In this document: positions 15,033 to 29,274 of the stretch, piece after piece
Position numbering within the stretch: the stretch's first letter is position 1
Layout of the letters: every line of letters begins with the position of its first letter
Source of the DNA: Xinfangfangia pollutisoli
GTDB lineage: Bacteria > Pseudomonadota > Alphaproteobacteria > Rhodobacterales > Rhodobacteraceae
Length of the DNA stretch: 36,698 bases
NCBI RefSeq assembly: GCF_020179405.1
Contig: NZ_JAICBZ010000040.1
Location: 1 to 36,698 of the forward strand
Direction of reading: 5' to 3'
Notes under the pieces: model-generated
Told to the model about the DNA's origin: nothing
Databases searched by the model: none
The model's input: the letters and a program-made list of their open reading frames with translations, nothing else
Program-made: the position numbers and the translations under genes

Positions 15033-15173
15033 ATGACGAAGCCAAGGTCTGATACAGGCGGCGTTGATGAAACCCAAGAACCGCTTTTCGATGTCGCCGC
15101 AGCGGGCAGCCTGAACCCGGTCGCGACCCTGCGACCGAGCGGAACCGTCTGCCCCCGTCTTCACCTGCTGGAC
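15033..15173 (+). pseudogene. Possible N-terminal gene remnant at the island border
   Basis: Starting at the ATG at 15033 a frame reads MTKPRSDTGGVDETQEPLFD..., continuing VAAAGSLNPVATLRP and LHLLDAQG up to about 15173. It looks more like natural protein than an antisense shadow, then runs into the 3' end of the opposite-strand permease. It may be the start of a gene cut off when the ABC/catabolic island arrived, or chance. I recognise no family and see no Shine-Dalgarno. Confidence 0.25.
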
Positions 15174-15928
15174 GCCCAGGGGAAAAGCCTGCGCTCGGCC
15201 CAGACCAGAATCTGGTTGATGCACAGGCCGATCACGCCGATCACGATCAATGCCGCGTAAAGATCGGCGCTGCGATAGGACCGTTGCGCGACGAAGATGT
15301 CATAGCCCAGGCCCGGCAAAGAGGCCTGCATCTCGGTCACCACCGTCATGATCAGCGCAAGCGCCAGCCCGGTGCGCAGCCCGGGGAAGATATCCCTGAA
15401 GGCCGATGGCAGATGAACGGTCAGAAAGGCCCGCAGCCTTCCCATTTCCAGCACACGCGCCAATTCGCGCAGCCCGACAGGCACATTCTGGAAGCCGTGT
15501 ACCGTCCCGAGCAAGACCGGCCACATCGAGCCGAAGGCGATCACGAAGACCGACATCGCCTCATTCAGGCCGAACATCAGGATCGCCACGGGAATGATGG
15601 CGGATGCCGGCAGGGGCCGGATCGCGTCGAGGGTGGGCATCAGCAGGCGCCGCACAAGGGCAGAGCTGCCAAGCGCCGCCCCCAGCAGGATGCCGATCCC
15701 CGAGGCCAGCGCGAAGCCCGTGACCATGCGATGCGTGGTGGCCAGCATGCTGGCCGCCAAGCTGCCGTTCAGCGTCTGACGCCACAGCACCGCAAAGGCG
15801 TCGACCGGGCCGACCAGAAAGCTGCGCTTCACAAGCCCCATCTGGGCAACCGCCTGCCACAGCGCCAGAAAGGCCAGGGCAGACAGCAGCATCAGGGTGA
15901 AGCGATGAAGAAGGATCGGCCGCATCAT
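15161..15928 (-). CDS. ABC transporter permease (SsuC/TauC-type), second permease
   Basis: A 255-residue inner-membrane subunit with about six hydrophobic segments. The BPD_transp_1 domain includes the cytoplasmic coupling ('EAA') loop LRELARVLEMGRLRAFLTVHLPSAFRDIFPGLRTG at about 150-185. It belongs with the SBP, ATPase and other permease as a SsuABC/TauABC-like importer, a family carrying sulfonates, nitrate, taurine, thiamine precursors or aromatic acids. The ATG at 15928 overlaps the stop of the upstream permease by four bases (ATGA), so the two permeases are co-translated and probably form a heterodimer. Confidence 0.9.
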   Translation of the reverse strand: MMRPILLHRFTLMLLSALAFLALWQAVAQMGLVKRSFLVGPVDAFAVLWRQTLNGSLAASMLATTHRMVTGFALASGIGILLGAALGSSALVRRLLMPTLDAIRPLPASAIIPVAILMFGLNEAMSVFVIAFGSMWPVLLGTVHGFQNVPVGLRELARVLEMGRLRAFLTVHLPSAFRDIFPGLRTGLALALIMTVVTEMQASLPGLGYDIFVAQRSYRSADLYAALIVIGVIGLCINQILVWAERRLFPWASSR

Positions 15929-16728
15929 CGCGCCATCTCGGTTGAAAATCGGTTCAGAAGATTGGACAGCGCGCCGGCAGCGGCGCCAAGTCCAGCAAGC
16001 CAGACGATACAGGCATACATCAGATCGGGCCGGAACGACTGCTGCGCCAAGATCAGCTGATAGCCCAGCCCGCGCGGATTGGCGAGGATCTCGACCGTGA
16101 CGGAAACGACCAGCGCAAAGCCCATGGCGGTGCGCAGACCCACGACGATACGGCCGAAGACCGCCGGCAGGATGATCACGCGCAACCGTCTTGCCAGCCC
16201 CATTTCCAGCACATCCGCCACTTCCAGCAGGCGCCGGTCGATGCCGCGCGTGGCGGCAAGGGCCGCAACCATCACCGGCCAGGCGGTGGCATAGGCGACG
16301 ATCACCATCTGAAGGGCCAGCCCGAAGCCGAAGACCAGCAGGGCCAGCGGTGTGAAGGCGATGGCGGGAATGGCGCGCAGCATTTCGACCGTCGGCCGGG
16401 TGGCGATCTCCGCCATCGGCTGCAGGCCAAGGAACACCCCCAGCACGGCGCCGGTCACGGCACCGACCAGCAGCCCCAATCCGGCCGCCTGCAGGGTTTG
16501 CAGGGTCGCCGTCAGCAGGCTTCCGTCAAGGATCGCCGCGATGCCGGCCCTTGCGATCGACGAGGGACGCGAGAAGGCGCCCTCGTCGATATAGCCGCCG
16601 GCCGCGGCCGCCTCCCATCCGATCAGCAGGGTCGCCGGAACGATCAGGGACAGGACGAGGTTGGTCATCCGCGCGGCAAGGCCGGCGGGCAACAGGTTCA
16701 CAGGGGGGCGGCGCATGGCTTGCGGCAT
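15925..16728 (-). CDS. ABC transporter permease (SsuC/TauC-type), first permease
   Basis: An inner-membrane subunit of about 267 residues with six hydrophobic segments. Its coupling loop reads DRRLLEVADVLEMGLARRLRVIILPAVFGRIVVGLRTAMGFALV. The frame is open to 16770, but that start would overlap the SBP gene by 35 bases; the ATG at 16728 lies seven bases after the SBP stop and is preferred, with the ATG at 16716 as a further option. None of these has a good Shine-Dalgarno. It resembles the second permease in layout, as expected from a duplication. Confidence 0.88.
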   Translation of the reverse strand: MPQAMRRPPVNLLPAGLAARMTNLVLSLIVPATLLIGWEAAAAGGYIDEGAFSRPSSIARAGIAAILDGSLLTATLQTLQAAGLGLLVGAVTGAVLGVFLGLQPMAEIATRPTVEMLRAIPAIAFTPLALLVFGFGLALQMVIVAYATAWPVMVAALAATRGIDRRLLEVADVLEMGLARRLRVIILPAVFGRIVVGLRTAMGFALVVSVTVEILANPRGLGYQLILAQQSFRPDLMYACIVWLAGLGAAAGALSNLLNRFSTEMAR

Positions 16729-16735
16729 GCTGGCG

Positions 16736-17650
16736 TCAATCGCCCGCGACGAGGGTCTTGGTATCGACATCCCCGGTCAGCAGGTCGAATTCGCGCCCGA
16801 CACCGACGAAGAAATCGAAATCGGCGGGGACGATCGCCGTGCGCCATGCGGGCGTATAGGGCGGGTTCACGTTCAGATGGGTTTTCGCGATCTCGCCCGC
16901 CGCGTCGCGATTGGCCCGGATCCAGTCGATGCTTTCGTCAAGGCAGGCTGTGAAGGCCTTCACCGCCTCGGGATTGCTGCGCGCCCATTCGCCGGTCGTG
17001 GCCCAGAGCGTGATCAGTGCATCATCGGCCACCGCGGAATAATACTCACCGGCGTTGCGCTCGGCCAGGCCGCCGCTGACCAACGCGCCCAACACCGGCT
17101 CGGCCGCGACCACCGCATCAATGCTTCCCGCCTTCATCATCTCGGCCATGCGGGGGAAGGGCACTTCGACAAAGGTGATCGTGGCGGGATCGACCCCCTC
17201 GGTCACCAGCCATTTGCGAAACACAAGATCGGCCACCGACAGCAAACCGGGCACGCCGACCTTACGGCCTTCCAGGTCCTTGGCCGTGGTGATGCCCAGG
17301 CCCGTGCGGGTGACCAGGCTTAGCCCTTCATTGCCCTTTTGCATGACCGAACTGCCCGCGATGGCGACCATGTCGATGCCATTTTCGACCGCGGGCAGGA
17401 TGACCGTCGGCGTGCTGATCCCGATCTGCAGCGAGCCGGACAGAAGCGCCGGCGGGATATTGGTCACAACCGGGGTCGGCACCAGGACACTGTCATAGCC
17501 CGCCCGCTTCAGGCAGCCATTCTCATGCGCGACAAGGCCGGGCAATGTGTCAATCGAGGGCGGAAAGCCGATATGGATCGTCTCATCCGCAAGGGCCGCT
17601 CCTGCTGCGCAGAAAGCTGCAAGCGTCAGCGGCAGAAATGCCTTAGTCAT
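16736..17650 (-). CDS. ABC transporter substrate-binding protein (NMT1/THI5/SsuA-like)
   Basis: A 304-residue periplasmic binding protein. The signal peptide is residues 1-21 (MTKAFLPLTLAAFCAAGAALA, with an ALA cut site). The mature protein has the NMT1/SsuA-like layout: IHIGFPPSIDTLPGLVAHENGCLKRAGYD, then GSLQIGISTPTVILPAVENGID, and the hinge/lobe region DLEGRKVGVPGLLSVADLVFRKWL and AGSIDAVVAAEPVLGALV. It determines the importer's substrate, which I cannot name. GGGAGG stands six bases before the ATG. A hairpin and a tandem repeat lie between it and the ATPase gene upstream. Confidence 0.9.
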   Translation of the reverse strand: MTKAFLPLTLAAFCAAGAALADETIHIGFPPSIDTLPGLVAHENGCLKRAGYDSVLVPTPVVTNIPPALLSGSLQIGISTPTVILPAVENGIDMVAIAGSSVMQKGNEGLSLVTRTGLGITTAKDLEGRKVGVPGLLSVADLVFRKWLVTEGVDPATITFVEVPFPRMAEMMKAGSIDAVVAAEPVLGALVSGGLAERNAGEYYSAVADDALITLWATTGEWARSNPEAVKAFTACLDESIDWIRANRDAAGEIAKTHLNVNPPYTPAWRTAIVPADFDFFVGVGREFDLLTGDVDTKTLVAGD

Positions 17651-17677
17651 GTGTTTCCTCCCATGGAATATGGCCCG

Positions 17678-17719: not shown

Positions 17720-17727
17720 TTCTGCGT

Positions 17728-18555
17728 TCAGTGTCCGACGATCAACTGGTGCAGCTGGTGCCTGCGCGCGATGAATTCGGCCGCTTCGCGGGTGGTCAGC
17801 TGGTGGCGCGGCCGGGCCAGCGCGATGTCAAGCGTGGTCAGGATCCGGCCGGGATTGGCCCCCAGCCCCATCACCCGGTCGCCCAGATAGATCGCCTCTT
17901 CCAGGTCATGGGTGATGAAGATCACGGTAATGCCTTCGCGGGCGACCAGATCCAGCAACTCGTCCTGCAGCGATTGCCGCGTCATCGCGTCCAGCGCGCC
18001 GAAGGGTTCATCCATCAGCAGAAGACGCGGCCGTTGCGCCAGGCAGCGGGCGATCTGCACGCGTTGCTGCATTCCGCCCGACAGTTCGGACGGGTATTTC
18101 TCGGCCGCGGCAGCAAGCCCTGTCATCGCAAGCAGCCGTGTCACCTCGGCTTCGGCGTCCTGGCGGCTTACCGATCCGGGGCTGATGCCCAGCCGGACAT
18201 TGGCGCGCACGGTGCGCCAGGGCAGCAGCGCGCGGCCATAATCCTGAAACACGATCGCCCGCTCGCGCGACGGGGCGGTGACCGGAGCGCCCTCGAACAG
18301 GATTTCCCCCGAGGTCGGGCGCTGCAGGCCGGCGATCTGACGCAAGAGCGTGGTCTTGCCGCAGCCTGACCCCCCGACGATGCAGAACACCTCGCCAGAG
18401 CGGACGTCGAAGCTGATCCCCTCAAAGACGCAATGGCGCTGCGGCCCGGTTCCGAAGACCATGGATGCGCCCCTGACACGGATGGCAACGCCGTCCTGCG
18501 CCCGTCGGGGCACCGCTGTCGCATCGGTCTGGCCTGTCTGGCCTGTCATCTGCAT
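17728..18555 (-). CDS. ABC transporter ATP-binding protein (SsuB/TauB-type)
   Basis: A 275-residue cytoplasmic ATPase. Walker A is GGSGCGKTT, the Q-loop lies in [15 protein letters not shown], the signature is [16 protein letters not shown], Walker B is [12 protein letters not shown], and the switch histidine is in ITHDLEEA. These are the patterns of the nitrate/sulfonate/taurine subgroup. The start at 18555 is preceded by GGAGGAG; the frame to 18654 would add a Cys/Arg-rich tail with no site. It is the first gene of the minus-strand importer operon and divergent from the degradation operon. Confidence 0.92.
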
Positions 18556-18932
18556 GGCCGCATCTCCTCCGCTTCGGGGTGCAAGCCGCTGGCAGGGCAA
18601 CCGGCAGGTTGCGCCTTTCAGTGCGTGCAGTGTTCCGACGTCCCTCCGGTTCACCGCAGCGGCCCCCTCCTCGGGTCACAAACGATGAATTCAGGAAATC
18701 GTATTCGGGTGGATCTGCAGGGTCTTGTTCCAGAGCGCGGCCTTCATGGACCCGGAGTGCGGTGCCGTTTTCGGAGCCGAAAATTAAAAAATGTTTGTTA
18801 TCAGACTATTGGCGCGATTTCGCTTCGGCGGTCGCCTGCAGGGCGCACAATCAGGCAATGCCGGCTTCCCTTTCAGACCAGACAGCCGCCTTCCCGACAT
18901 GACAGCTTTCCTCAGGGCAGGAGGAGTTGGAC
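18556..18932. promoter_or_regulatory. Divergent control region of the catabolic island
   Basis: The 377 bp separate the minus-strand ABC operon from the plus-strand degradation operon. No convincing gene is present. It contains an AT-rich patch (18780-18810) unlike the GC-rich surroundings, a 16-bp palindrome, and the AGGAGGAG Shine-Dalgarno of the first plus-strand gene (18919-18926). I could not place -35/-10 boxes with confidence. Both operons are likely controlled from here. Confidence 0.55.
18768..18783. promoter_or_regulatory. Palindromic operator candidate TTTTCGG-ag-CCGAAAA
   Basis: Perfect 7-bp arms with a two-base centre, next to the AT-rich patch in the middle of the divergent region. 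The position suits a dimeric regulator acting on both operons. The AraC-type gene at 27336 would more usually bind direct repeats, so a different regulator may be responsible. Confidence 0.4.
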
Positions 18933-20057
18933 ATGGCAGAATTGTCGGGTCCGCGTTCGCTCTCGAACGCGAAGGAATGGATGCTGGACAAGCTGAAGGC
19001 CGCGGTTCATCCGATGGGCCTGACCGACCCGGATGCCACCCGCGAGGTGATTGCCGGGCTGAAGGGGCTGGACGGTGCGCAATGGGCGGCGGCCTGGATG
19101 GCCAAGGGTGATGCCTTTGCCGCCGTCGCCGAGAAAGCCGAGGCTGCGGGTGACGCCGATGCGGCGCGCGCGGCCTGGTATCAGGCCTATGGCTTCTACT
19201 TCCTGGGTCGCTTTCCCTGCCCGAACCACCCGGACAAGGAAGACAGCTATCGCCGCGAAGTCGCCGCCTATCAGCGGTTTGGCCGTCTGGCACGGCCCGC
19301 GATCGAGGTGGTGACCGTTCCCTTCGACGGGCGCGCGGGCGAAGGCCGCGAGATCACCTTCTATGTGCGGATGCCCGAAGGCGTGGCAAATCCGCCGGTC
19401 ATCGCCATGTGGGGCGGGGTCGACGCCTGGAAAGAGGAAATGACCATCCTGACCGAAGGTCTGGCGAAAGAGGGCTTCGCGACCATCGCGCTGGACAATG
19501 TCGGCACCGGGCAATCGCCGATCAAGGCCGGCCCCGATGGCGAGCGGCAGTTCCTGCCGGTTTTCGACTGGATCGAGACCTGCGGCCGGTTCGCGCCGGG
19601 GCGGCTGGCGATTGTCGGGCGCTCGTTCGGGGGGCATTGGGCGACCAAGCTGGCGCATCTTTTCCCGCAGCGGTTCCGGGCGGCGGTGAACTGGGGGGGC
19701 GGCGTGCATTTCATGTTCCAGCCCGACTGGATCGAGGCCTCGCGCCATCCCGACAGCTATCTGATGGAGCTGGTCGAGACCCGCTCGCGGATGCTGGGGG
19801 CTGCGAATGACGCCGAATACATCGCCGGGTTCAAGCGGCTTTCCCTGCTGGATCAGGGGCTGCTGGATCAGCCCTGCGCGCCGCTGCTGCTGATCAACGG
19901 CAAGAACGACACGCAATGCCCGGTCACCGATATCGAGCTGCTGACAGAACATGGCGACCCGAAAGCGGTGCGCCTTTTCCCGGGGCGCGGCCATATGGGC
20001 TTTGGCCCCGGCACCGTGCCCGCGATCATCGGCTGGCTGAAAAGCCACCTTGCCTGA
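18933..20057 (+). CDS. Alpha/beta hydrolase, DUF1100 / 2,6-dihydroxypseudooxynicotine hydrolase-like
   Basis: A 374-residue alpha/beta hydrolase with a long helical N-terminal cap (about 1-125, including GFYFLGRFPCPNHPDKEDSYRREV), as in the C-C hydrolase that splits 2,6-dihydroxypseudooxynicotine in nicotine-degrading Arthrobacter. Candidate triad: S231 in GRSFGGH, D326 in NGKNDTQCP, H354 in GRGHMGF. The length is close to the 367 residues I recall for that enzyme. A strong AGGAGGAG precedes the ATG at 18933. As the first gene of the degradation operon it probably removes an acyl side chain by C-C cleavage. A general esterase is the alternative. Confidence 0.8.
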   Translation: MAELSGPRSLSNAKEWMLDKLKAAVHPMGLTDPDATREVIAGLKGLDGAQWAAAWMAKGDAFAAVAEKAEAAGDADAARAAWYQAYGFYFLGRFPCPNHPDKEDSYRREVAAYQRFGRLARPAIEVVTVPFDGRAGEGREITFYVRMPEGVANPPVIAMWGGVDAWKEEMTILTEGLAKEGFATIALDNVGTGQSPIKAGPDGERQFLPVFDWIETCGRFAPGRLAIVGRSFGGHWATKLAHLFPQRFRAAVNWGGGVHFMFQPDWIEASRHPDSYLMELVETRSRMLGAANDAEYIAGFKRLSLLDQGLLDQPCAPLLLINGKNDTQCPVTDIELLTEHGDPKAVRLFPGRGHMGFGPGTVPAIIGWLKSHLA

Positions 20058-20071: not shown

Positions 20072-20380
20072 ATGGCGAACTGGCAGGAAATGATGCCCAG
20101 CACACGGGCATATCTGATGAACAAGGTGCTGTATGAGCTGCACCACAAGCCCGATGACCTTGCAGCCTACAAGGCCGATGCCGAGGCCTATCTGGCGCGC
20201 TTCGGCCTGCCGCAGGATCTGGCCGACTGCATCCGCAACAATGATGTCGCGAACATGTATCTGACCGGCGTCAATCCCTATCTGCTGCGCGCCCATTGCA
20301 TCGGGGTCCGCATCCCCGAGGATGTAAGCCTTGCCGCGCTGCGCAGCCTGCTGACCCATGAGGATTACAACAATGGCTGA
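20072..20380 (+). CDS. Extradiol dioxygenase small subunit, LigA-like
   Basis: A 102-residue helical protein of the protocatechuate 4,5-dioxygenase alpha-subunit (LigA) family. Typical elements: RAYLMNKVLYELHHKPDDLAAYKAD, an N-terminal helix pair, then GLPQDLADCIRNNDVANMYLTGVNPYLLRAH, which covers the active site of the partner subunit. A GGAGGAAA site precedes the ATG. It overlaps the LigB-like gene by eight bases, consistent with equal production of an alpha2-beta2 enzyme. Confidence 0.88.
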   Translation: MANWQEMMPSTRAYLMNKVLYELHHKPDDLAAYKADAEAYLARFGLPQDLADCIRNNDVANMYLTGVNPYLLRAHCIGVRIPEDVSLAALRSLLTHEDYNNG

Positions 20381-21194
20381 GATCACCGGCATCTACACCG
20401 CCTCGCATACCCCGGTCATGCTGAACTTCCCCGACCGGATTCCGGCCGAGCTGAAGGATGAGATCTTCGGGGCCTACAAGGCGATGGGCGACGACTTCAT
20501 GTCGGGCAAGCCCGATGCGCTGATCGTGCTGTCGAACGACCACCTGCACAACTTCTTCCTCGACAATTTCCCGGCCTATTGCATCGGTTGCGCCGAAAGC
20601 TACGAAAGCCCGATCGAGCATTGGCTGCATGCCAAGCGCCGGGTCTTTGCCGGCGACCAGGCCTTTGGCGCCTATCTGCTGCAGGAAGCCTATCAGGCCG
20701 ATTTCGACCCGTCCTTCTCGATGGAGATGGTGCTGGATCACGGCTCGCTTACGCCGCTGGAACTGGCGGGGGTGGATCCGGATCTGCCGATCGTGCCGGT
20801 GCTGATCAACTGCGTGCAGCCGCCCATGCCGACGATGCGGCGCAGCTATGCGCTTGGCCAGTTCCTCGGGCGGGCGATCCGCGCCTATGAAGGCGTGGAC
20901 CGTGTGGCGATCCTGGCCACGGGCGGCATCAGCCATGACATCGCCACCCCGCGCATGGGCATGGTGAATGAGGAATTCGACCAGACCTTCCTCACTCTGA
21001 TGGAGAAGGGCGATATCGAAGGCACGCTGCGCTATGCCACCGATTTCGTCCACACCGCGGGCAATGGCTGCGAAGAGATCCGCATGTGGATGGCCGCGAT
21101 GGGCGCGGCGGACGGGGCGCCGTTCCGGCGGGCCTATTACCGGGCGGTGAACGATTGGTATACCGGCATCGGCATCGGTCGGTTCGAGGTTTGA
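20373..21194 (+). CDS. Extradiol ring-cleavage dioxygenase catalytic subunit, LigB-like
   Basis: A 273-residue type II (LigB superfamily) extradiol dioxygenase that opens a dihydroxylated ring next to the diol with Fe(II) and oxygen. Iron-ligand candidates are H12 (TASHTPVM; the same number as in Sphingobium LigB), H57/H59 (SNDHLHNFF) and E234/E235 (GNGCEEIRMW). H188 (GGISHDI) is the acid/base histidine. The ATG at 20373 has a GAGG site nine bases upstream; 20358 is an alternative start. Only part of the protein resembles classical protocatechuate enzymes, so the substrate may be a different catechol- or pyridinediol-type ring. Confidence 0.88.
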   Translation: MAEITGIYTASHTPVMLNFPDRIPAELKDEIFGAYKAMGDDFMSGKPDALIVLSNDHLHNFFLDNFPAYCIGCAESYESPIEHWLHAKRRVFAGDQAFGAYLLQEAYQADFDPSFSMEMVLDHGSLTPLELAGVDPDLPIVPVLINCVQPPMPTMRRSYALGQFLGRAIRAYEGVDRVAILATGGISHDIATPRMGMVNEEFDQTFLTLMEKGDIEGTLRYATDFVHTAGNGCEEIRMWMAAMGAADGAPFRRAYYRAVNDWYTGIGIGRFEV

Positions 21195-21198
21195 TGCC

Positions 21199-22335
21199 AT
21201 GATCCGCCAAAGAAAGCCGGCAGCGCGAAGCGCGCTTGTCATCGGCGGGGGCATTGCCGGCATGTCGGCGGCGCTGGCGCTTGCCGAGGTCGGGGTCGCC
21301 GTGCGGCTGATCGACAGCGATCCCGACTGGAAGGTCTACGGCGCCGGAATCACCATCACCGGGCCGACGCTGCGGGTGATGAAACGTCTGGGCATTCTCG
21401 ACCGCGTGATGGCCGAGGGCTGGACGGCGGATGGCCTGCTGGCCTGCGATGCGCAGGGGGCCGAGCTGGCCCGGATCGACACTTCGGACGCGGCATTGGG
21501 CGAGGTGCCGGGTGCGGGCGGCATTCTGCGGCCCGCGCTGCATCAGATGCTGTCCGAGCGGGTGCGCGCCAGCGGGATCGCCGTCGATCTTGGCCTGTCG
21601 GTCCGCGCGCTTGCACAGGGGCAGCCGCGCCAGGTGACCTTCTCGGATGGCAGCAGCGCGGCCTATGATCTGGTCGTGGGCGCCGATGGCATCTTTTCGG
21701 CGACCCGCGACATGCTGTTCCCCGGCCTGCCTGCGCCGAAATATGTGGGCCAGGTCTGCTGGCGGCTGATGACAGAACGCCATCCGCAGATCGACCGGCG
21801 CACCTATTTCCTGGGCGGGCCGTTGAAGGTGGGGATGAACCCGGTCTCGCCCGAGGGCATGTACATGTTCCTGCTGGAACCGGTGCCGCAGTTCCAGCGC
21901 CTGCCGGATGAGGCCCTGCCCGGACGGCTGGCCGAGTTGATGGCGCCCTATGGCGGCATCGTTGCCGATGTGCGCGACGCGATTACCGCCGGCTCCACCA
22001 TCGTGGCCCGGCCGCTGGAAACCATTTTCCTGCCGGAACCCTGGTATCGTGACGGTGTCGTGCTGATCGGCGATGCCGCGCATGCCACGACACCGCAGCT
22101 TGCCTCGGGCGCCGGAATGGCGATGGAGGATGGCCTGGTTCTGGGCGAGGAAATCGCCCGCGCCGACAGCGTGGAGGCGGCGCTTGCCGCCTTCCAGGGC
22201 CGACGCTACGCCCGCTGCGCGACGGTGGTTGAAAATTCCCTGCAACTGGGGCGCCTGGAGCGGGCCTGCTCGACACCCGTCGAACAGATCCGCGTGGTCG
22301 AGGATGCCCTCAAGAAACTGAACGAGCCCTACTGA
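21199..22335 (+). CDS. FAD-dependent aromatic-ring monooxygenase (class A)
   Basis: A 378-residue single-component flavin hydroxylase. Residues 14-21 hold the dinucleotide fold GGGIAG followed by acidic D39. The DG motif is LVVGADGIFSATR and the second FAD motif is VVLIGDAAHATTPQLASGAGMAMEDG near residue 290. It belongs with salicylate hydroxylase, 3-hydroxybenzoate 6-hydroxylase, 6-hydroxynicotinate and 2,6-dihydroxypyridine hydroxylases; I cannot assign one. NAD(P)H-dependent ortho- or para-hydroxylation before LigAB cleavage is the likely role. It starts four bases after the LigB stop and its TGA overlaps the next ATG by one base. Confidence 0.88.
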   Translation: MIRQRKPAARSALVIGGGIAGMSAALALAEVGVAVRLIDSDPDWKVYGAGITITGPTLRVMKRLGILDRVMAEGWTADGLLACDAQGAELARIDTSDAALGEVPGAGGILRPALHQMLSERVRASGIAVDLGLSVRALAQGQPRQVTFSDGSSAAYDLVVGADGIFSATRDMLFPGLPAPKYVGQVCWRLMTERHPQIDRRTYFLGGPLKVGMNPVSPEGMYMFLLEPVPQFQRLPDEALPGRLAELMAPYGGIVADVRDAITAGSTIVARPLETIFLPEPWYRDGVVLIGDAAHATTPQLASGAGMAMEDGLVLGEEIARADSVEAALAAFQGRRYARCATVVENSLQLGRLERACSTPVEQIRVVEDALKKLNEPY

Positions 22336-23102
22336 TGTTCCTGACCGTCAACGACCATCTTCAGCACGTCATGATCGCTGGCCCCGAAGACGGGCCGGTG
22401 CTGGTGCTGCTGCATTCGCTGGGCACTTCGGGGCTGTTGTGGCAGGCGCAGGTGGCGCATTTCGCCCGCAGCCATCGGGTGATCTGCCCCGATTTCCGCG
22501 GCCATGGGCTCAGCGCCGAAAGCCGCGTTCCCCTGACCTGCGCGGATCTGGCCGGGGATGTCCTGGCCATCCTCGACCGGTTCGGGGTGAACAGCTTCGC
22601 GCTGGCGGGCTGTTCATTGGGCGGCGTGGTGGCGCAGATCGTGGCCGCCCGCGCGGGCCAGCGGGTCACGGGACTGGTGATCTTCGACAGCTATATCGCC
22701 AGCCTGAACCCGCCGATGTGGCGCGATCGGGCGGCCAAGGTTCGGGCCGACGGGCTGGCCTCGATTGCGGAAGGGGTGCTGAAGCTTTGGATCAGCCCCG
22801 CCGAGGCCGAGACGCCGGAAGGCGCCGGTTTGCGCCAGATCCTCGCCCGGGCCAGCAGCGAGGGCTATGCCGCCGCCTGCGACGCCCTGGCCGAGGTGGA
22901 CAACCGCGCCATCGCCGGCAGCATCCTTTGCCCAACCATCGTTGCCTCGGGGTCCGAAGACCGTGCCGTGCCGCTGGCCGCCAGCCAGGCGCTGGCCGAG
23001 GCCATCTCTGGCGCATCGGTCGAAGTCATCGCGGGGGCGGGGCACATCCCGCTGCTGCATCACGCGGAAACCTGCTGCAGCCTGATCGGGCGCATCACCT
23101 GA
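22335..23102 (+). CDS. Alpha/beta hydrolase, PcaD/NicD-like
   Basis: A 255-residue cytosolic hydrolase of the fold used by 3-oxoadipate enol-lactonase (PcaD) and N-formylmaleamate deformylase (NicD). Seen: the oxyanion region VLLHSLGTSG (25-33), CPDFRGHGLS (51-60), nucleophile S94 in GCSLGG, D209 in GSEDRAVP and H237 in AGHIPLLH. It is coupled to the monooxygenase by a TGATG overlap. A role in hydrolysing the ring-cleavage product (lactone, amide or formyl group) is inferred from position only. Confidence 0.82.
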   Translation: MFLTVNDHLQHVMIAGPEDGPVLVLLHSLGTSGLLWQAQVAHFARSHRVICPDFRGHGLSAESRVPLTCADLAGDVLAILDRFGVNSFALAGCSLGGVVAQIVAARAGQRVTGLVIFDSYIASLNPPMWRDRAAKVRADGLASIAEGVLKLWISPAEAETPEGAGLRQILARASSEGYAAACDALAEVDNRAIAGSILCPTIVASGSEDRAVPLAASQALAEAISGASVEVIAGAGHIPLLHHAETCCSLIGRIT

Positions 23103-23162: not shown

Positions 23163-23249
23163 TTGCACCACATTATCCCAGTCCTGTCGTCTGGTCCGAC
23201 CGGACCGCACGGCAGCACCAGGCAGAAACCGGGGGAGGAAGGTCAATGA
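23163..23249 (+). CDS. Possible short ORF coupled to the molybdenum hydroxylase gene
   Basis: In the 143-bp gap before the large subunit a GGGAGG (23152-23157) is followed at suitable distance by TTG at 23163. The frame gives about 28 residues (MHHIIPVLSSGPTGPHG...) and its TGA overlaps the next ATG (ATGA). The codons also form a GGTCCG-ac-CGGACC hairpin. It may be a leader for coupling, a remnant, or chance. Confidence 0.25.
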   Translation: MHHIIPVLSSGPTGPHGSTRQKPGEEGQ

Positions 23250-25579
23250 ACGATCTGCGCGACCGTTTCACCGGCCGTTTGGAGGACCGCCGTTTCCTGA
23301 CCGGCACAGGCCGCTATGTCGATGACATCACCTTGCCGCATCAGGCCCATATGGCGCTGGTGCTGTCGCCTTACGCCCATGCGGTGCTGCGCGGCATTGA
23401 TACCGCCGAGGCCGAGGCGATGCCCGGCGTTCTGGCGGTGCTGACCGGCGCCGATGTGCTGGCAGACGGGCTTGGTCCGGTGCCGCCCTTCTTCATGCCG
23501 AAGATGTGGGGCGGGCCTGAAGGCTATGCCACGCTGCGCCCGATCCTGTGTACGGACAGGGTGCGCTGCGTCGGCGACCGTGTGGCCATCGTCATCGCGG
23601 AAACCCGCGATCAGGCCCGGCTTGCGGCGGAAATGGTGGCGGTGGACTATGACCCGCTGCCCGTCGTCACCAGCGCGCGCGCGGCGCTTGAAGGCGATGG
23701 CGTGCCGCTTTGGGAGGACAATCCGACCGGAAATCTGTCGTGCAGCCTGGAAATGGGCGACAAGGCCGCCACGGCCGCCGCCTTTGCCGCGGCCGATGTG
23801 ACGCTGCACCGTCATTTCCTGACCCCGCGTCTGGCGCCCGCGTCGCTGGAGCCGCGGGGCTGTATCGGCCATTATGACGCCGGCGAGGATCGCTATACGC
23901 TGCATACCTCGTCGCAGGATCCGCATGGCTTCCGCGCGGTGATCGCCCGCAATGTGCTGAAATGCGCCGAAAGCCGCATTCGGGTGATCTCGCCCGATGT
24001 CGGCGGCGGTTTTGGTCTGAAAGCGCATATGCATCCCGAGGATGCGCTGGTGCTTTGGGCCTCGCGCCGCACCGGGCGGCCGGTGAAATGGATCGCGACC
24101 CGGTCCGAGGCGATGATGACCGACACCCAGGGCCGCGGCCAGGAGATCGAGGCCGAAATCGCGCTGAACCGCGATGGCAAGGTGCTGGCGGTGCGGGCGA
24201 CCGCCTGGACGAATATGGGCGCCTATTTCTGGGGAACGGCGACACCGCCCTTCTATTTCGCGATGCAGCTGATCCCCAATGTCTATGATCTTGGGGCGGT
24301 TGATCTGACCAATCATGCCGTCTTCACCAATATCGCCCCGATGAGCGTCTATCGCGGCGCGGGCCGGCCCGAGGCGACGTTCGTGATGGAGCGGCTGATG
24401 GACGAGGCCGCCGCCGCCATCGGCATGGATCCGGTGGAGTTGCGCCTGAAGAACGTGATCGCCCCCGAGGCGATGCCGTTCAAGACCGCAACCGGCATGG
24501 TGTATGACAGCGGCGAATTCGCCAACATGATCCGCAAGGCGCGTGCCGCGGCGGATTGGGCGGGATTTCCCGCCCGCGCCGAGGCAAGCCGGGCGAAGGG
24601 GTTGCTTCGGGGCCGCTCGTTGATCTCGTATATCGAGGTTGCGGGGGTGATGAACGAAAGGATGGAACTGCGGTTCGAACCCGACGGAACCTTGACCATT
24701 CTGGCTGGCACCCATTCGCATGGGCAGGGGCATGCCACCGTCTTTACCGAACTGGTGGCGGACTGGTTGTCGATCCCGGCCGAAAGCATCCGCTATGTGC
24801 AGGGCGATACCGACAGGATCCTGGTCGGGCGCGGCACCTTCGCCGCCCGCTCGTCGATGCTGGGCGGCTCGGCGCTTTTGCGGGCGAAGGATGCGCTGAT
24901 CGAGCGGGCAAAGGAAATGGCGGCCGTGGTGCTGCAGGCCGAGATCGCGGATATCGACTTCGAGCAGGGCATGCTGAAGGTCAGGGGCAGCAACAAGGCG
25001 CTGTCTCTCATCGAGGCGGCAAAGCTGTTCTATCTGCCCGCGGGCCCCGCGAACCTGCTGGGCATCGGGCTGACCGGCGCGGGCACGGCGGCGGGCAAGC
25101 CGGGCGCTGCGCCGAACTACCCCAATGGCTGCATGGTCTGCGAGGTCGAGGTGAACCCGAAAACCGGGGCGCTGACGATCGAGCGCTTTGTCGCCTTTGA
25201 CGATGTGGGCCGGATCCTGAACGCCACGCTTTGCGAAGGGCAGATCCATGGCGGCATCGCGCAGGGGCTGGGTCAGGCCCTGCTGGAAGCGATGACCTAT
25301 GACGAGGATGGCCAGCTCACCTCGGGCTCGTTCATGGATTACTGCATGCCCCGGGCCGAGCATATGCCCGCCGTCGATTCGTATCTGCTGGAGGTGCCCT
25401 GCGCCACCAATCCGCTGCAGGTGAAGGGCGTCGGCGAATCCGGCGCCATCGGGACGCCTGCCGCTTTGGTCAATGCGGTGATGGACGCCATCCGCCCGCT
25501 TGGCGTGACGTCCATCGACATGCCGGTCACTCAGGCCCGGCTGTGGCAAACGCTTCGGGATGCCGAGGCAGGAGTATAA
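23246..25579 (+). CDS. Molybdenum hydroxylase large subunit (xanthine dehydrogenase family, CoxL-like but not a CO dehydrogenase)
   Basis: A 777-residue Mo-cytosine-dinucleotide-type subunit. It begins GRLEDRRFLTGTGRYVDD, the usual N-terminus. The Mo-site loop at 368-374 is VYRGAGR, the 'form II'/general hydroxylase type, not the C-S-F-R loop of true CO dehydrogenase. G253-G256 (VGGGFG) and the catalytic glutamate E731 (GVGESGAIG) are present. Such enzymes insert water-derived oxygen beside a ring nitrogen or into aldehydes/ketones (nicotine, ketone, quinoline dehydrogenases). GGGGGAGGAAGG precedes the ATG at 23246. It is followed at once by CoxG-, CoxS- and CoxM-like genes. Confidence 0.9.
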   Translation: MNDLRDRFTGRLEDRRFLTGTGRYVDDITLPHQAHMALVLSPYAHAVLRGIDTAEAEAMPGVLAVLTGADVLADGLGPVPPFFMPKMWGGPEGYATLRPILCTDRVRCVGDRVAIVIAETRDQARLAAEMVAVDYDPLPVVTSARAALEGDGVPLWEDNPTGNLSCSLEMGDKAATAAAFAAADVTLHRHFLTPRLAPASLEPRGCIGHYDAGEDRYTLHTSSQDPHGFRAVIARNVLKCAESRIRVISPDVGGGFGLKAHMHPEDALVLWASRRTGRPVKWIATRSEAMMTDTQGRGQEIEAEIALNRDGKVLAVRATAWTNMGAYFWGTATPPFYFAMQLIPNVYDLGAVDLTNHAVFTNIAPMSVYRGAGRPEATFVMERLMDEAAAAIGMDPVELRLKNVIAPEAMPFKTATGMVYDSGEFANMIRKARAAADWAGFPARAEASRAKGLLRGRSLISYIEVAGVMNERMELRFEPDGTLTILAGTHSHGQGHATVFTELVADWLSIPAESIRYVQGDTDRILVGRGTFAARSSMLGGSALLRAKDALIERAKEMAAVVLQAEIADIDFEQGMLKVRGSNKALSLIEAAKLFYLPAGPANLLGIGLTGAGTAAGKPGAAPNYPNGCMVCEVEVNPKTGALTIERFVAFDDVGRILNATLCEGQIHGGIAQGLGQALLEAMTYDEDGQLTSGSFMDYCMPRAEHMPAVDSYLLEVPCATNPLQVKGVGESGAIGTPAALVNAVMDAIRPLGVTSIDMPVTQARLWQTLRDAEAGV

Positions 25580-25580
25580 C

Positions 25581-26036
25581 ATGGAACTGAGCGGAAACTT
25601 CACCGTGAACCGCCCCCGCGCCGAAGTCTGGGCTGCGCTGAACGATGCCGAAGTCCTGCGTGATGCCATCCCCGGCTGCGAAAGCCTTGATGTCTCGGAA
25701 GGCGGCTATGACGGCAAGATCGTGCTGAAGATCGGGCCGATCAAGGCCTCGTTTTCGGGCCGGGTCAACATCGCCGAAGCGGTCGAGAATGAACGCCTGA
25801 CCCTGACGGGCGAAGGCAATGGCGGGATTGCCGGCTTCGCCAAGGGTGGCGCGACCGTCACGTTGACGGACACGCCCGAGGGCACCGAAGTGGTCTATTC
25901 CGCCGATGTGTCGATCGGCGGCAAGTTGGCCCAGCTGGGCAACCGGCTGATCGGTTCGACCGCACGGCAATTGGCCGGAAAGTTCTTTGACCGGCTGAAC
26001 GAAACGCTTGCCCAGCCGCAGGAGCCGGTCAGATGA
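25581..26036 (+). CDS. CoxG-like SRPBCC-family protein
   Basis: A 151-residue lipid/membrane-binding-type fold of the CoxG family (SRPBCC). Seen: MELSGNFTVNRPRAEVWAALNDAEVLRDAIPGC at the N-terminus, the Lys-Gly-rich strand GKIVLKIGPIKASFSGRV, and SADVSIGGKLAQLGNRLIGSTARQLAGKFFD. In CO dehydrogenase systems CoxG recruits the enzyme to the membrane. Here it stands between large and small subunits. The ATG at 25581 is one base after the large-subunit stop, with AGGAG nine bases away, and it overlaps the next gene by four bases. Confidence 0.88.
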   Translation: MELSGNFTVNRPRAEVWAALNDAEVLRDAIPGCESLDVSEGGYDGKIVLKIGPIKASFSGRVNIAEAVENERLTLTGEGNGGIAGFAKGGATVTLTDTPEGTEVVYSADVSIGGKLAQLGNRLIGSTARQLAGKFFDRLNETLAQPQEPVR

Positions 26037-26536
26037 GGGATATTGTCCTGAACGTGAACGGCAAGACGCGCCATGCGCGGATCGAAGAGCGGACGCTTCT
26101 GGTCAGCCTGTTGCGCGACACGCTGGGTCTGACGGGCACGCATGTCGGCTGCGATACCTCGCAATGCGGGGCCTGTGTCGTCAGCATCGAGGGCGAGACG
26201 GTGAAATCCTGCAGCGTCCTTGCCGCGACCCTGCCCGATGGCACCGCGATTTCCACGATCGAAAGCCTTGCAACCTCCGATGCGCTGCATCCGATGCAGC
26301 AGGCCTTTTCCGAATGCCATGCCCTGCAATGCGGCTACTGCACGCCGGGTCTGGTGATCACGGCCATCGACATCGTGCGGAAGAACCCCGAAGGCCTGAC
26401 CCCCGATCTGATCCGCAAAGAGCTGAAGGGCAATATCTGTCGCTGCACCGGCTATCTGAACATCATCCAGGCCATCATGCGGGGCGCGGCGGCGATGGGC
26501 GTGCCCACCCTGGCCGCCGAGGGAGAGGCGCAATGA
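26033..26536 (+). CDS. (2Fe-2S)-binding small subunit, CoxS-like
   Basis: A 167-residue small subunit carrying two [2Fe-2S] clusters that pass electrons from the molybdenum centre to FAD. The plant-ferredoxin cluster uses C40, C45, C48 and C60 (GCDTSQCGACVV...KSC) and the alpha-helical cluster C100, C103, C136 and C138 (QCGYCTPG...NICRCTGY). All eight cysteines are in place. ATGA overlaps on both sides (CoxG before, CoxM after) show strict translational coupling. Confidence 0.95.
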   Translation: MRDIVLNVNGKTRHARIEERTLLVSLLRDTLGLTGTHVGCDTSQCGACVVSIEGETVKSCSVLAATLPDGTAISTIESLATSDALHPMQQAFSECHALQCGYCTPGLVITAIDIVRKNPEGLTPDLIRKELKGNICRCTGYLNIIQAIMRGAAAMGVPTLAAEGEAQ

Positions 26537-27333
26537 ACGAGTTCCAGATCATCCGCCCCGCCGCGCTTTCCGATGCCGTGGCGGCGTTCAACGACGCCGA
26601 GGAGGCGATGTATCTTTCGGGCGGCATGACGCTGATCCCGTCGATGAAGGCGCGCCTCGCGGCACCGCAACTGCTGATCGACCTGTCGGGCCTGCCCGAA
26701 ATGCAGGGGATCAGCGATTCCGGCCTCAGCCTGCGCATCGGCGCCATGACCCGCTGGGCCGAGATCCTGCGCTCGGATGTGGTGGCCGGGGCCATTCCCG
26801 AGCTGGCGCGACTGGTCGGCCAGATCGCGGATCGGCATGTGCGCAACCGCGGCACCATCGGCGGCTCGATTGCCAATAATGACCCGGCGGCAGATTGCCC
26901 GGCTGCGGTTCTTGGCCTGGGCGCGACGCTGATCACCGACCGGCGCGAAATTGCGGCAGACGATTTCTATCTGGGTCTGTTCACAACCGCGCTGGAGGAA
27001 GACGAGATCCTGGTCGCCATTGATTTTCCGAAACCCCAGGCCGCAGCCTATGCCAAGCATCCGCATCCGGCTTCGGGCTATGCAGTGGCGGGGGTGATGG
27101 TGGCGCGCATGGCGCAGGGCTGGCGGGTGGCGGTGACTGGCGCGGGGGCGGATGGCGCGTTTCGCCTGACCGAGCTTGAAGCCGCATTGCAAAGCGGGCC
27201 GGTGGAAGCCGCCTTGGAAAAGATCGACGTCTCGGCAATTCAGGTTCTGAACGAACCGGCATTTCCTGCCGATTTCCGGCGCCAGCTGATCCTGTGGCTG
27301 GCGCGTGAAAGTCTGGGCCGACTGGCGGTGTGA
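26533..27333 (+). CDS. FAD-binding medium subunit, CoxM-like
   Basis: A 266-residue flavoprotein subunit of the molybdenum hydroxylase. The two FAD loops are SGGMTLIP at 29-36 (the AGGTDL-type motif, here GGMTL) and RGTIGGSIANNDPAADCPAA at 106-125. The N-terminal half binds FAD and the C-terminal part is the CO-dehydrogenase flavoprotein domain. It closes the L-G-S-M block with an ATGA overlap. The Cox maturation genes coxD, coxE and coxF are not present here. Confidence 0.93.
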   Translation: MNEFQIIRPAALSDAVAAFNDAEEAMYLSGGMTLIPSMKARLAAPQLLIDLSGLPEMQGISDSGLSLRIGAMTRWAEILRSDVVAGAIPELARLVGQIADRHVRNRGTIGGSIANNDPAADCPAAVLGLGATLITDRREIAADDFYLGLFTTALEEDEILVAIDFPKPQAAAYAKHPHPASGYAVAGVMVARMAQGWRVAVTGAGADGAFRLTELEAALQSGPVEAALEKIDVSAIQVLNEPAFPADFRRQLILWLARESLGRLAV

Positions 27334-27335
27334 TG

Positions 27336-28301
27336 TCAGTTCTGCCGCGGCTGCGGCTGGGCGCGGCCGCGTTTTGCTTCTCGGTAGCGTTGCGGCGTGG
27401 TGCCGAAGCGCGCCTTGAACTGCCGGCCGAAATGCGCGGCGTCATTGAAGCCCCAGTCAAAGGCGATTGCCGAGACGGGCTTTTCCGCAAGCGCGGCGTT
27501 TTCCAGCTCTGCCCGCACGCGACCGAGCCGCTGGTCCCAGATCCAGCGCATCAGGGTCGTGCCGGTGCGCCCGAAAACCGAATGCACCTGCCGCACCGAC
27601 AGGCCGACATCGGCGGCAATGCGCGAGCAGTCCAGATCGGGATCCGACAGGTTGCGCAGCGCGGCTTCCTGCACCCGGTTGAGCGTGCGGTCGCGCGACC
27701 AGCCCGCGTTGGACGCAAGCGGACGGTCGGTGACCATCGACACGGCAAGCAGGTTGGCCAGGCACCCGGCCATCCGGTGCATGATCTGCTCGGGCTGTTC
27801 CCAGGACATCGCGAAAATGCTGCCGATCATCTCGGCACAAAGCCGCCCCAGCCCCTGGTCGCAATCCAGCGCCGTGGCCGTATAAAGATCGCGCTCGGGA
27901 AAGATCGCCTGCCAGAAATGCGAGTCGAGATAGACCGAGCGGGTGCGGATCTCTTCGGTCATGATCTCGAAGGGCTGGGTCGTGTCGATAAAGAAGATCT
28001 GGTTCGGGCCGACATCGGTCAGGCGGGAATCCTGCCGGACCGTCGCGTAGCCCTCCATCTGGTAGGAAACCAGATAATTGTGCCCCGCCCGCCGCGACGG
28101 ACGACCCGCCTGCAGCCGGGTATGATGCGCGGAAAAGCGGATGTCGGCCAGGCGCAGCCGCGACGAGACATAGCTCTTCTGGATCTCGCCGGCATAGGGT
28201 TGCGAGCCTTTGGGGCTAAGCTCGAAGCGGGTCTGAAGAAGGTCGTTCATCCCACGCTGAAAATCCATGCCCGAAGCCCGCAGCACCGGCGCGCCAGTCA
28301 T
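27336..28301 (-). CDS. AraC-family transcriptional regulator
   Basis: A 321-residue regulator with an N-terminal AraC-binding-like/cupin domain (about 20-190, RLQAGRPSRRAGHNYLVSYQMEG, DTTQPFEI) and a C-terminal double helix-turn-helix (about 215-315: SRIAADVGLSVRQVHSVFGRTG...RIRAEL-type, then PVSAIAFDWGFNDAAHFGRQFKARFGTTPQRYR). The second HTH carries the AraC consensus GF-N-x-A-H-F-x-x-x-F-x-x-x-x-G-x-x-P. I start at 28301, where GGAGACA precedes the ATG; 28331 and 28373 are alternatives. It stops two bases from coxM (convergent) and is divergent from the BKACE gene. It probably activates the island in response to substrate. Confidence 0.9.
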   Translation of the reverse strand: MTGAPVLRASGMDFQRGMNDLLQTRFELSPKGSQPYAGEIQKSYVSSRLRLADIRFSAHHTRLQAGRPSRRAGHNYLVSYQMEGYATVRQDSRLTDVGPNQIFFIDTTQPFEIMTEEIRTRSVYLDSHFWQAIFPERDLYTATALDCDQGLGRLCAEMIGSIFAMSWEQPEQIMHRMAGCLANLLAVSMVTDRPLASNAGWSRDRTLNRVQEAALRNLSDPDLDCSRIAADVGLSVRQVHSVFGRTGTTLMRWIWDQRLGRVRAELENAALAEKPVSAIAFDWGFNDAAHFGRQFKARFGTTPQRYREAKRGRAQPQPRQN

Positions 28302-28331
28302 TGTCTCCACCCCATCTCCCCCCGTCGCCAT

Positions 28332-28356
28332 GGGGCTGCGCAGGCACCGCAGCCCC
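28332..28356. promoter_or_regulatory. Inverted repeat between AraC gene and BKACE gene
   Basis: GGGGCTGCG, seven bases, CGCAGCCCC: perfect 9-bp arms in the divergent intergenic region. It lies 31-55 bases upstream of the AraC start at 28301 and 64 bases before the BKACE ATG. It is an operator candidate, or an mRNA hairpin in the regulator's leader. Confidence 0.4.
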
Positions 28357-28419
28357 CTCACTTTAAAGAACACGGATCAGTGCGTCCAGTTGCCGCACCG
28401 GCACGAGAAGGAAAGTCAC

Positions 28420-29274
28420 ATGTCTTTGACCTGCATCATGGTGGCCCCGAATGGTGCCCGTCGCACCAAGGCGGATCATCCCGCCCTTCCCCTGACCCCC
28501 GAGGATCTGGCGCAAACGGCCAAGGCCTGTTTTCAGGCCGGGGCGGGCGCGATTCATCTTCATGTGCGCGACGCCGACGGGCGGCATTCTCTGGATCCGG
28601 TGGCCTATCGTGCGGCCATGGTGGCGGTGCGGCAGGCCTGTCCCGATATCGCGCGGCAGGTTACGACCGAGGCGGCGGGACTGTTCGACCTTGAGACCCA
28701 GATCGCCGCGGTTCGCGAGCTGAGGCCCGCGGCCATTTCTTTCTCGATCGCCGAACTGATGCGCGAGGGCACCGCCAAGGGCGAAGCCTTCCTGGCCTGG
28801 GCGGCAGGCGAACGGATCTCGACGCAGTTCATCCTGTACGACGCGGAACAGATCTCGCTGTTCGCGGGGCTGTGGCGGTCGGGGCGGCTGCATCTGTCTG
28901 CCGCGCCGCGGCTGATCCTTGTGGCGGGGCGCTATGCCGCGGATCAGAATTCCGACTTTGCCGATTTCGAGGCGCTTTATGCCGCGCTGCGGGCCGAGGG
29001 GCTGCATGAGCAATCGGTCTGGATGACCTGCGCCTTCGGTCGGGGCGAAATGGCCTGCCTTGCGCGCACCATCGAACTTGGGGGGCATGTGCGGGTCGGG
29101 TTCGAGAATGCCATTGTCGATGCCGAAGGGCGGCCCGCGCGCGACAATGCCGAACGGGTGGCGCTTGCCGCCGATCTGGTGCGCCGTCATGGTCGCCGCG
29201 TGGCCACTGGCGCCGAGGCCGCCGATATTCTGGGGATCCTGCGGCCGGACCCGGCCTTGGCCCCAAAGGCGTGA
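28420..29274 (+). CDS. Beta-keto acid cleavage enzyme (BKACE, Kce-like)
   Basis: A 284-residue TIM-barrel enzyme of the BKACE family (DUF849), which joins a beta-keto acid to acetyl-CoA and releases an acyl-CoA or amine-type product. Zinc ligand candidates are H46 and H48 in AIHLHVRDADGRHSLDP, with later family motifs CAFGRGEMACLARTIELGGHVRVGFEN. The ATG at 28420 has an AAGGAAA site. Family members serve lysine and carnitine breakdown among others; the substrate here is not readable. It lies downstream of the degradation operon and divergent from the AraC gene, as expected for a late step. Confidence 0.85.
   Translation: MSLTCIMVAPNGARRTKADHPALPLTPEDLAQTAKACFQAGAGAIHLHVRDADGRHSLDPVAYRAAMVAVRQACPDIARQVTTEAAGLFDLETQIAAVRELRPAAISFSIAELMREGTAKGEAFLAWAAGERISTQFILYDAEQISLFAGLWRSGRLHLSAAPRLILVAGRYAADQNSDFADFEALYAALRAEGLHEQSVWMTCAFGRGEMACLARTIELGGHVRVGFENAIVDAEGRPARDNAERVALAADLVRRHGRRVATGAEAADILGILRPDPALAPKA

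Follow-up and report, generated by a model that had tools for sequence, protein, structure and literature searches.

Two described gene clusters are among the closest to the one treated here. The hcdABC cluster of Pseudomonas mandelii 7HK4 consists of a flavin monooxygenase, an extradiol dioxygenase and a hydrolase (PMC6222606). The asd cluster of P. rhizophila AS1 combines a flavin monooxygenase with a VOC protein, two alpha/beta hydrolases and a putative transporter, and activity was shown for AsdA only (PMC12911418). In this paper we compare with these and other known systems a block of 15 genes at positions 15161-29274 of a contig of Xinfangfangia pollutisoli (NZ_JAICBZ010000040.1). By the window we mean the whole stretch of 36,698 nucleotides that was analysed, which is contig 124 of a 4.41 Mb genome. 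All frames of the block are open, and they comprise four transport genes, nine enzyme genes, a CoxG gene and one regulator gene. It is very likely that the block imports and opens an aromatic ring compound. Our results show a real, conserved and patchily spread catabolic unit, whose core consists of the flavin monooxygenase, LigAB and a capped hydrolase, and to which the molybdenum (Mo) hydroxylase (10 of 33 loci) and the ABC importer (3 of 33) are add-ons.

The island has its three-step logic in common with hcdABC, and asd has a VOC protein where the island has LigAB. Both clusters are likened to the island by description and not by sequence, and the available parts of the two reports do not mention a Mo hydroxylase, a beta-keto acid cleavage enzyme (BKACE) or a hydrolase of the FrsA/Ayg1 type. 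Among the naringenin (fde), sorgoleone and acetosyringone routes that we looked up, only asd resembles the logic of the island. The riboflavin (lum) operon of Nocardioides simplex brings together a xanthine-oxidase-type enzyme, a P450, a Rieske protein and an extradiol dioxygenase. Ring cleavage in that pathway yields a pyrone, which a cobalt hydrolase opens, and the route also requires pyrimidine-ring hydrolases and a thiamin enzyme (PMC12746152). The riboflavin pathway is ruled out, as the cobalt hydrolase, the pyrimidine-ring hydrolases and the thiamin enzyme are not among the island genes.

With the LigAB protocatechuate 4,5-dioxygenase and gallate dioxygenase the island shares LigA and LigB subunits, and the catalytic residues align. 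The island LigB, however, stays below the cut-off of all 11 NCBIfam models that it matched (best 178.8 bits, cut-off 290). In protocatechuate/gallate 4,5-cleavage, ligAB is accompanied by CHMS dehydrogenase, PDC hydrolase, hydratase and aldolase genes. Pfam finds none of these, and no LigC, LigI or LigJ type, among the island genes, to which this search was confined, and we do not assign the island to this pathway. The mimosine/3,4-dihydroxypyridine (pyd) pathway is ruled out, as LigB reads NDHLHNF and CEEIRMWM where PydA has DDHFENH and EWICGM. The nicotine pyridine pathway does not fit either: the capped hydrolase scores 51 bits with 2,6-dihydroxypseudooxynicotine hydrolase (DHPONH) and 165 bits with an Ayg1-like protein, and the monooxygenase 44.7 bits with 2vou, the 2,6-dihydroxypyridine hydroxylase, and 97.4 bits with 3rp6. 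The first-pass annotation of this DNA knew of no described pathway with exactly this gene set, and we found none among the matches listed in the open-access literature, a scope outside which most subscription journals lie. The pathway logic is of a known kind, and to our knowledge neither this hydrolase partner nor this scheme of add-ons has been described before.

A conserved core with varying add-ons

Gene content was called by Pfam, and relatives in other loci were counted by tblastn with set identity floors. Of the 33 loci, 29 come from scanning named genomes with LigB as the only query and three are among the five best plasmid matches; the window is the last. Loci from named genomes reach at most 10 kb to each side, and the counts of outer genes are lower bounds. 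The 29 scan loci span Maritimibacter, Pararhodobacter, Devosia, Mesorhizobium, Rhizobium, Allorhizobium, Ensifer, Roseomonas relatives, Novosphingobium, Herbaspirillum and others, and the full set covers Rhodobacteraceae, Hyphomicrobiales, Roseomonas relatives, Novosphingobium and Herbaspirillum. LigB is present in all 33 by construction. LigA is also found in 33 loci, the capped hydrolase in 32, the flavin monooxygenase in 31 and a PcaD-like hydrolase in 27. For the outer genes we count at least 19 loci with BKACE, at least 10 with each of CoxL, CoxS and CoxM, at least nine with CoxG and with the AraC regulator, and at least three with each ABC gene. In 28 of the 29 scan loci the gene immediately upstream of LigA, and on its strand, is that of the capped hydrolase (the copy in locus L051 is split over two frames), and the monooxygenase is on the opposite strand in Herbaspirillum. 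The block had been read as a coherent aromatic-catabolic island, with the caution that homologues might be mostly unlinked in related genomes. The genome search suggested at that stage has been run, and in these 33 loci the genes remain neighbours.

The distances of several genes track those of LigB, with r between 0.78 and 0.93 for the capped hydrolase, the monooxygenase, CoxL, the PcaD-like hydrolase, BKACE and AraC, and 0.37 for CoxM (CoxG was left out). None of 2000 permutations was as good for any gene, although this statistic includes species relatedness. Within the ten Mo hydroxylase loci, r with LigB is 0.73-0.85 for CoxL, CoxS, the capped hydrolase and the monooxygenase, and 0.37 for CoxM. 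The CoxL proteins of the relatives' clusters are 56-76% identical to that of the island, against 45% for the closest paralogue in its own genome.

What accompanies the core differs between loci. Ten rhizobial loci (L038, L040, L041, L044-L047, L050, L054, L063) hold BKACE, the capped hydrolase, LigA, LigB, the monooxygenase and the PcaD-like hydrolase, and no Mo hydroxylase in the stretch examined. By clustering, all of them but L038 and L046 also hold TetR (c20) and MFS (c11) gene families, and in L050 the closest matches of the MFS protein are lactate and oxalate/formate carriers. In R. rosettiformans the six genes occur together with all of CoxL-G-S-M, and an MFS gene and a pair of 3-oxoacid CoA-transferase genes are close by. 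In Maritimibacter HTCC2654 (L034) a P450 and a ferredoxin (by our own reading, as are the TRAP and sugar-type importers below) precede the capped hydrolase, and the Cox genes, AraC and BKACE follow it. A P450 is also present in L055. TRAP importer genes lie 3' of the PcaD-like gene in L033, L036, L037 and L055. In Devosia enhydra and Rhizobium RU36D a GMC oxidoreductase gene stands just before the capped hydrolase, and these loci also hold a sugar-type importer and a xylose-isomerase-like protein; three Herbaspirillum have a VanA-type Rieske oxygenase (Pfam on one of the three) with a reductase. A complete ABC importer is found only in the window and in two metagenome-assembled genomes, one of Devosia (L035) and one of Rhizobiales (L048). 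P450, Rieske, GMC, MFS and TRAP genes occur in place of, or alongside, the Mo hydroxylase and the ABC importer. The view that the block is one full pathway from uptake to keto-acid cleavage is not supported as a fixed set, since many core-bearing loci show no Mo hydroxylase, many no ABC importer and many no BKACE. The exact gene set of the window is one of several arrangements.

Individual loci show further genes close by. A TRZ/ATZ-type amidohydrolase lies a few kb from the cluster at L062:9141-10601 and also in L038, L044, L047 and L064 (five of 32 clustered loci; one member run). Its start resembles a Tat signal by our reading, and it may release the substrate from a conjugate. In R. rhizoryzae, L063:2484-8079, just upstream of the main cluster, holds a second flavin monooxygenase (42%), a 27% relative of the capped hydrolase and, as we read the translations, a Rieske ferredoxin-like protein, a cupin and an MFS gene. 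At L051:8547-11821 of Aquabacter sp. P-9 the capped hydrolase is in two frames and no monooxygenase match stands beside LigAB, which is either a decaying copy or a sequencing error.

The capped hydrolase and the other island genes

The capped hydrolase (18933..20057, plus strand; PF06500 60.9 bits) resembles FrsA and Ayg1. Its best solved relatives are an Ayg1-like protein (8qd7, 165 bits) and Ayg1 (133 bits), with both of which its Ser, Asp and His triad aligns, and DHPONH follows at 51 bits. We take the Ayg1-like and Ayg1 matches to be fungal hydrolases acting on polyketides. All of these are capped alpha/beta hydrolases, but only the protein studied here is linked to a ring-cleavage dioxygenase. 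After five orthologues, the next two best of 90 plasmid records are in Rhodococcus USK13 and Polymorphobacter megasporae. The first has a complete ring-hydroxylating dioxygenase and, behind it, a 44% relative flanked by an SDR gene and a VOC gene; in the second, a 36% relative lies 3' of VOC and flavin monooxygenase genes. Both VOC proteins have two-part glyoxalase domains with His, His and Glu at the class I extradiol positions, the placement expected for such dioxygenases. Because these relatives adjoin a probable extradiol dioxygenase of another class, the comparison suggests that the capped hydrolase hydrolyses the ring-cleavage product, though it stands outside the usual family for that step. 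More tentatively, and at slightly below even odds, the FrsA/Ayg1-type capped hydrolases may be a separate line of C-C hydrolases for ring-cleavage products, joined to at least two unrelated kinds of extradiol enzyme (LigAB, and VOC in Rhodococcus and Polymorphobacter), and may form with LigAB and the monooxygenase a plug-in core for an unassigned natural aromatic, fed by varying oxidases and importers.

The following genes of this operon are on the plus strand as well. LigA (20072..20380; PF07746 35 bits) precedes LigB (20373..21194; PF02900 141 bits), the catalytic subunit of a class III extradiol dioxygenase. Aligned to 1b4u, the island LigB keeps the five catalytic residues of that protein, four His and one Glu (numbers 12, 61, 127, 195 and 242). 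The flavin monooxygenase, of class A (21199..22335; PF01494 84.7 bits), belongs to the NCBIfam subfamily NF005313 (421.8 bits, above the cut-off of 372), a model named only 'hypothetical protein'. Its solved relatives include 3rp6 (97.4 bits), presumably the urate hydroxylase HpxO, a 3-hydroxypyridine-carboxylate oxygenase and 6-hydroxynicotinate 3-monooxygenase, but also 4-hydroxybenzoate and salicylate enzymes. Both marks of an extradiol (meta-cleavage) route that we looked for are present, the kept residues in LigB and a clustered oxygenase that could supply the diol (31 of 33 loci). The second alpha/beta hydrolase, which is PcaD-like (22335..23102; PF00561 95.2 bits), scores 209.7 bits with TIGR02427, below the cut-off of 255.85.

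The Mo hydroxylase has the make-up of the xanthine oxidase family, with domains of the large subunit (CoxL type, 23243..25579; PF02738, PF20256, PF01315), the [2Fe-2S] subunit (CoxS, 26033..26536; PF01799, PF00111) and the FAD subunit (CoxM, 26533..27333; PF00941 153 bits), all on the plus strand. The VKGVGESG region aligns, and we take its Glu to be catalytic. An L-G-S-M order had been reported for this enzyme; the order is as described, but G (25584..26036, plus strand) is no catalytic subunit: the frame from 25560 matches the CoxG family (PF06240) with 118.7 bits. Aerobic CO dehydrogenase (form I) is ruled out. In CO dehydrogenase the Cys of the AYxCSFR loop is a copper ligand, and the island loop VYRGAGRPE lacks it, reading YRGAGR where CO dehydrogenase chains have AYRCSFR or AYACSFR. 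Another CoxL-like gene, with 45% identity, lies elsewhere in the genome (G000:C35:37465-39810), and a single TAA interrupts the part of it that matches.

BKACE (28420..29274, plus strand; PF05853 210 bits on the frame from 28267) reaches the cut-off of no NCBIfam specificity model. Pfam shows neither a dienoate hydratase nor an aldolase among the island genes. The presence of two hydrolases and BKACE instead fits a trioxo ring-cleavage product or a hydrolysed nitrogen ring. Between the Cox genes and BKACE lies the AraC-family regulator (27336..28373, minus strand; PF12833, PF14525), which is FeaR-like (136.1 bits, cut-off 199) and whose true start is possibly further inside. The importer genes are all on the minus strand: permease 1 (15161..15928; PF00528 76.6 bits), with orthologues in three of the 33 loci including the window, permease 2 (15925..16770; PF00528 58.4 bits), an NMT1/SsuA-like periplasmic binding protein (16736..17650; PF09084 72.6 bits; TIGR01728 82.5 bits, below the cut-off of 163.5) and the ATPase (17728..18654; PF00005 115 bits; start codon unsettled).

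Every gene that the first-pass annotation named is found by Pfam, with the four-gene importer divergent from the operon of the hydrolase, LigAB, monooxygenase, second hydrolase and Mo hydroxylase, and with AraC and BKACE added. The tight packing that it described is seen in three groups, with overlaps or gaps of at most 14 bases within permease 1/permease 2/binding protein, within capped hydrolase/LigA/LigB/monooxygenase/second hydrolase and within CoxL/G/S/M. The gaps are wider between binding protein and ATPase (77 bp), between the second hydrolase and CoxL (140 bp) and between the divergent operons (about 280 bp).

Candidate regulator site and patchy distribution

Upstream of the capped hydrolase we find a candidate site for the AraC regulator, the direct repeat GCAATGC-N15-ACCAGAC with 22-bp spacing (18855..18883, plus strand), which ends 50 nt 5' of the start of the gene. 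A similar repeat, with a half-site of about NC(A/C)AGNC and copies 22 bp apart, ends 50-60 nt before the capped hydrolase match in the window, L033-L037, L048 and L055. These are eight of the nine loci with an AraC relative of at least 45% identity, and the window has the lowest score of the eight. Within each locus, no more than 2.2% of equal stretches score as well. All scores given here are leave-one-out; the initial choice of sites was made by eye, and several loci are close kin. Only one of 21 tested loci outside the eight reaches a comparable score (L041, at 96 nt), a test that left out L059 and L062-L064. The Herbaspirillum loci have weaker AraC relatives (33-36%) and no repeat. The information per column is 1.2 and 1.6 bits in the half-sites, 0.6 in the spacer and 1.1 in the ten bases to the left. 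In L035 the site picked by eye failed with the 34-column matrix (rank 591), and a different site was found with a half-site matrix built without it. L048 has a second copy before the ABC operon. In the window, the site is outside the best seven places by the half-site matrix, stands out by its position and ranks first by the 34-column matrix. A search for repeats within the window's own intergenic regions gave nothing convincing.

The island is patchily distributed. It is flanked on the left by a YbaK-type editing protein and an NYN gene, and on the right by two I78 inhibitor-like proteins and cytochrome c'. In G1023, a genome of the same genus, about 1.2 kb and a single gene separate YbaK from I78, where the window has 14.2 kb. 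By our reading of its translation, this gene (L068:3210-4385) is an alcohol dehydrogenase of the glutathione-dependent formaldehyde type. Such a clean junction is seen in one of the three congeneric regions taken; L069 and L070 are arranged differently, with about 7 kb between YbaK and cytochrome c'. With an E limit of 1e-60, the capped hydrolase occurs in one of 13 genomes of the genus, in three of 385 genomes of the class sample (the other two are 41-44% identical) and in one of 398 of the phylum sample, the window's own genome being included each time. LigB has a match at 1e-20 in 31 of 295 genomes of the family sample, but above 36-38% identity only in its own genome and one other (88%). 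The G+C content of the island is near that of its flanks, with LigA lowest (0.59). No tRNA was found in the window or in L068, and a DNA-level plasmid search gave four records covering at most 14% of the island. The island has apparently spread by horizontal transfer.

Two neighbouring features were also observed. About 4 kb from the island, a nicotinate phosphoribosyltransferase adjoins an isochorismatase-family, possibly nicotinamidase, gene (9515-11416, minus strand), a pair that probably serves NAD salvage and is unrelated to the island. Adjoining the island, the NYN domain is fused to an OST-HTH/LOTUS domain (13691-14464, minus strand; 85% identical in G1023).

Proposed pathway and competing explanations

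From the gene content we infer the following reactions, with their order, regulation and substrate. The FeaR-like AraC protein would switch the island on, and the binding-protein importer would take up an aromatic compound. The Mo hydroxylase may prepare it, by ring hydroxylation next to nitrogen or by aldehyde oxidation, and the flavin monooxygenase would add a ring hydroxyl to give a vicinal diol for extradiol cleavage by LigAB. The capped hydrolase, of the Ayg1/dihydroxypseudooxynicotine-hydrolase family, would hydrolyse a C-C bond of the cleavage product, a step for which a BphD-type hydrolase is usual. The PcaD-like hydrolase may cut a further fragment or a lactone, and BKACE would convert the resulting beta-keto acid and acetyl-CoA to an acyl-CoA and acetoacetate. 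We give this explanation as a whole, an aromatic-catabolic island with these steps, a probability of about 0.57.

Several points weigh against it. The literature covered holds no measured activity for any cluster enzyme or close relative, and the nearest solved relatives of the capped hydrolase presumably act on polyketides or a pyridine ketone and not on ring-cleavage products. A strict extradiol signature tried on the VOC proteins of Rhodococcus and Polymorphobacter matched neither. Two of four distant capped hydrolase relatives examined, both in alphaproteobacterial genomes (G508, 44%; G672, 41%), adjoin a different ABC importer, and LigAB was not found in the 14 kb taken around them; G672 has [2Fe-2S] and Mo-enzyme genes 3 kb further on. 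L059 has LigAB and the monooxygenase without the capped hydrolase, L051 and L060 are without the monooxygenase, the PcaD-like hydrolase is unseen in six of 33 loci, and BKACE is unseen in 14, some of which are too short to reach it. In L060, where the AraC relative lies about 7 kb off, there is no repeat, and the repeat copies of the window are weak (score 8.5 before the capped hydrolase, 5.7 before the ABC genes).

The substrate may be a nitrogen heterocycle. The Mo hydroxylase would then act beside the ring nitrogen, the monooxygenase would form the diol, LigAB would open it and one alpha/beta hydrolase would act on a C-N bond. The Mo hydroxylase loop, which is not that of CO dehydrogenase, is consistent with this, as are 3rp6 and the two pyridine enzymes among the relatives of the monooxygenase, and the LigB-family pydA is implicated in the opening of 3,4-dihydroxypyridine, with the enzyme unpurified (PMC3637104). 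We nevertheless rate it below even odds. The '(N-hetero)aromatic' of the first-pass annotation has the Mo hydroxylase as its main hint, but 23 of 33 loci keep the core without this enzyme in the stretch examined, and others have a P450, a VanA-type Rieske or a GMC oxidoreductase at the core, two of them with the sugar-type importer. LigB is also without the PydA signature peptides, Pfam shows no amidase or deaminase among the island genes, and the 4-hydroxybenzoate and salicylate enzymes are monooxygenase relatives too. A core without Mo hydroxylase, with several unrelated redox enzymes in attendance, would be accounted for by a nitrogen-free phenol such as a substituted resorcinol. In this case the monooxygenase would give a triol, LigAB a 2,4,6-trioxo acid, and C-C hydrolysis pyruvate and a beta-keto acid for BKACE, while the Mo hydroxylase, P450, Rieske or GMC enzyme, depending on the strain, would oxidise a methyl, alcohol or aldehyde substituent or demethylate. 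The presence of BKACE and the lack of a dienoate hydratase/aldolase in the island would be explained as well, and hcdABC is reported to produce a trihydroxyphenyl intermediate and then a 2,4-dihydroxy-6-oxo dienoate (PMC6222606). There is, however, no specific sequence mark for such a substrate, and BKACE is above no specificity cut-off. The redox add-ons are no simple swaps, as L034 has both P450 and Mo hydroxylase and positions differ, and for the orcinol route the matches listed in the open-access literature were two unrelated papers. We regard this phenol as a plausible candidate that is still somewhat less than probable.

A further alternative is that the capped hydrolase acts before ring opening. 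Like DHPONH, it might remove an acyl side chain beforehand, leaving the ring-cleavage product to the PcaD-like enzyme. Its family membership (DHPONH 51 bits, Ayg1-like 165 bits) allows for this, and the combination of Mo hydroxylase, capped hydrolase and monooxygenase recalls the nicotine pyridine pathway. But five loci without a PcaD-like match (L039, L048, L052, L053, L060) keep the capped hydrolase and L059 is without both, and members of its family stand next to LigAB or next to probable extradiol enzymes of the VOC type, so that we consider an earlier action unlikely. That the genes are chance neighbours or decaying remnants is highly improbable: the split capped hydrolase and missing monooxygenase of L051 would fit, but 32 of the 33 loci, from several orders, have the capped hydrolase next to LigAB, and in the window the frames are open and the catalytic residues aligned.

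In its present state the block is a good lead for a catabolic island, with no surprise of principle. If the proposed explanation is true, it would give functions to the NF005313/PRK06847 monooxygenases, to this LigAB clade and to the FrsA-like hydrolases, which now have general names only, and it would mean that rhizobia, Devosia, Maritimibacter and Herbaspirillum share an aromatic growth substrate.

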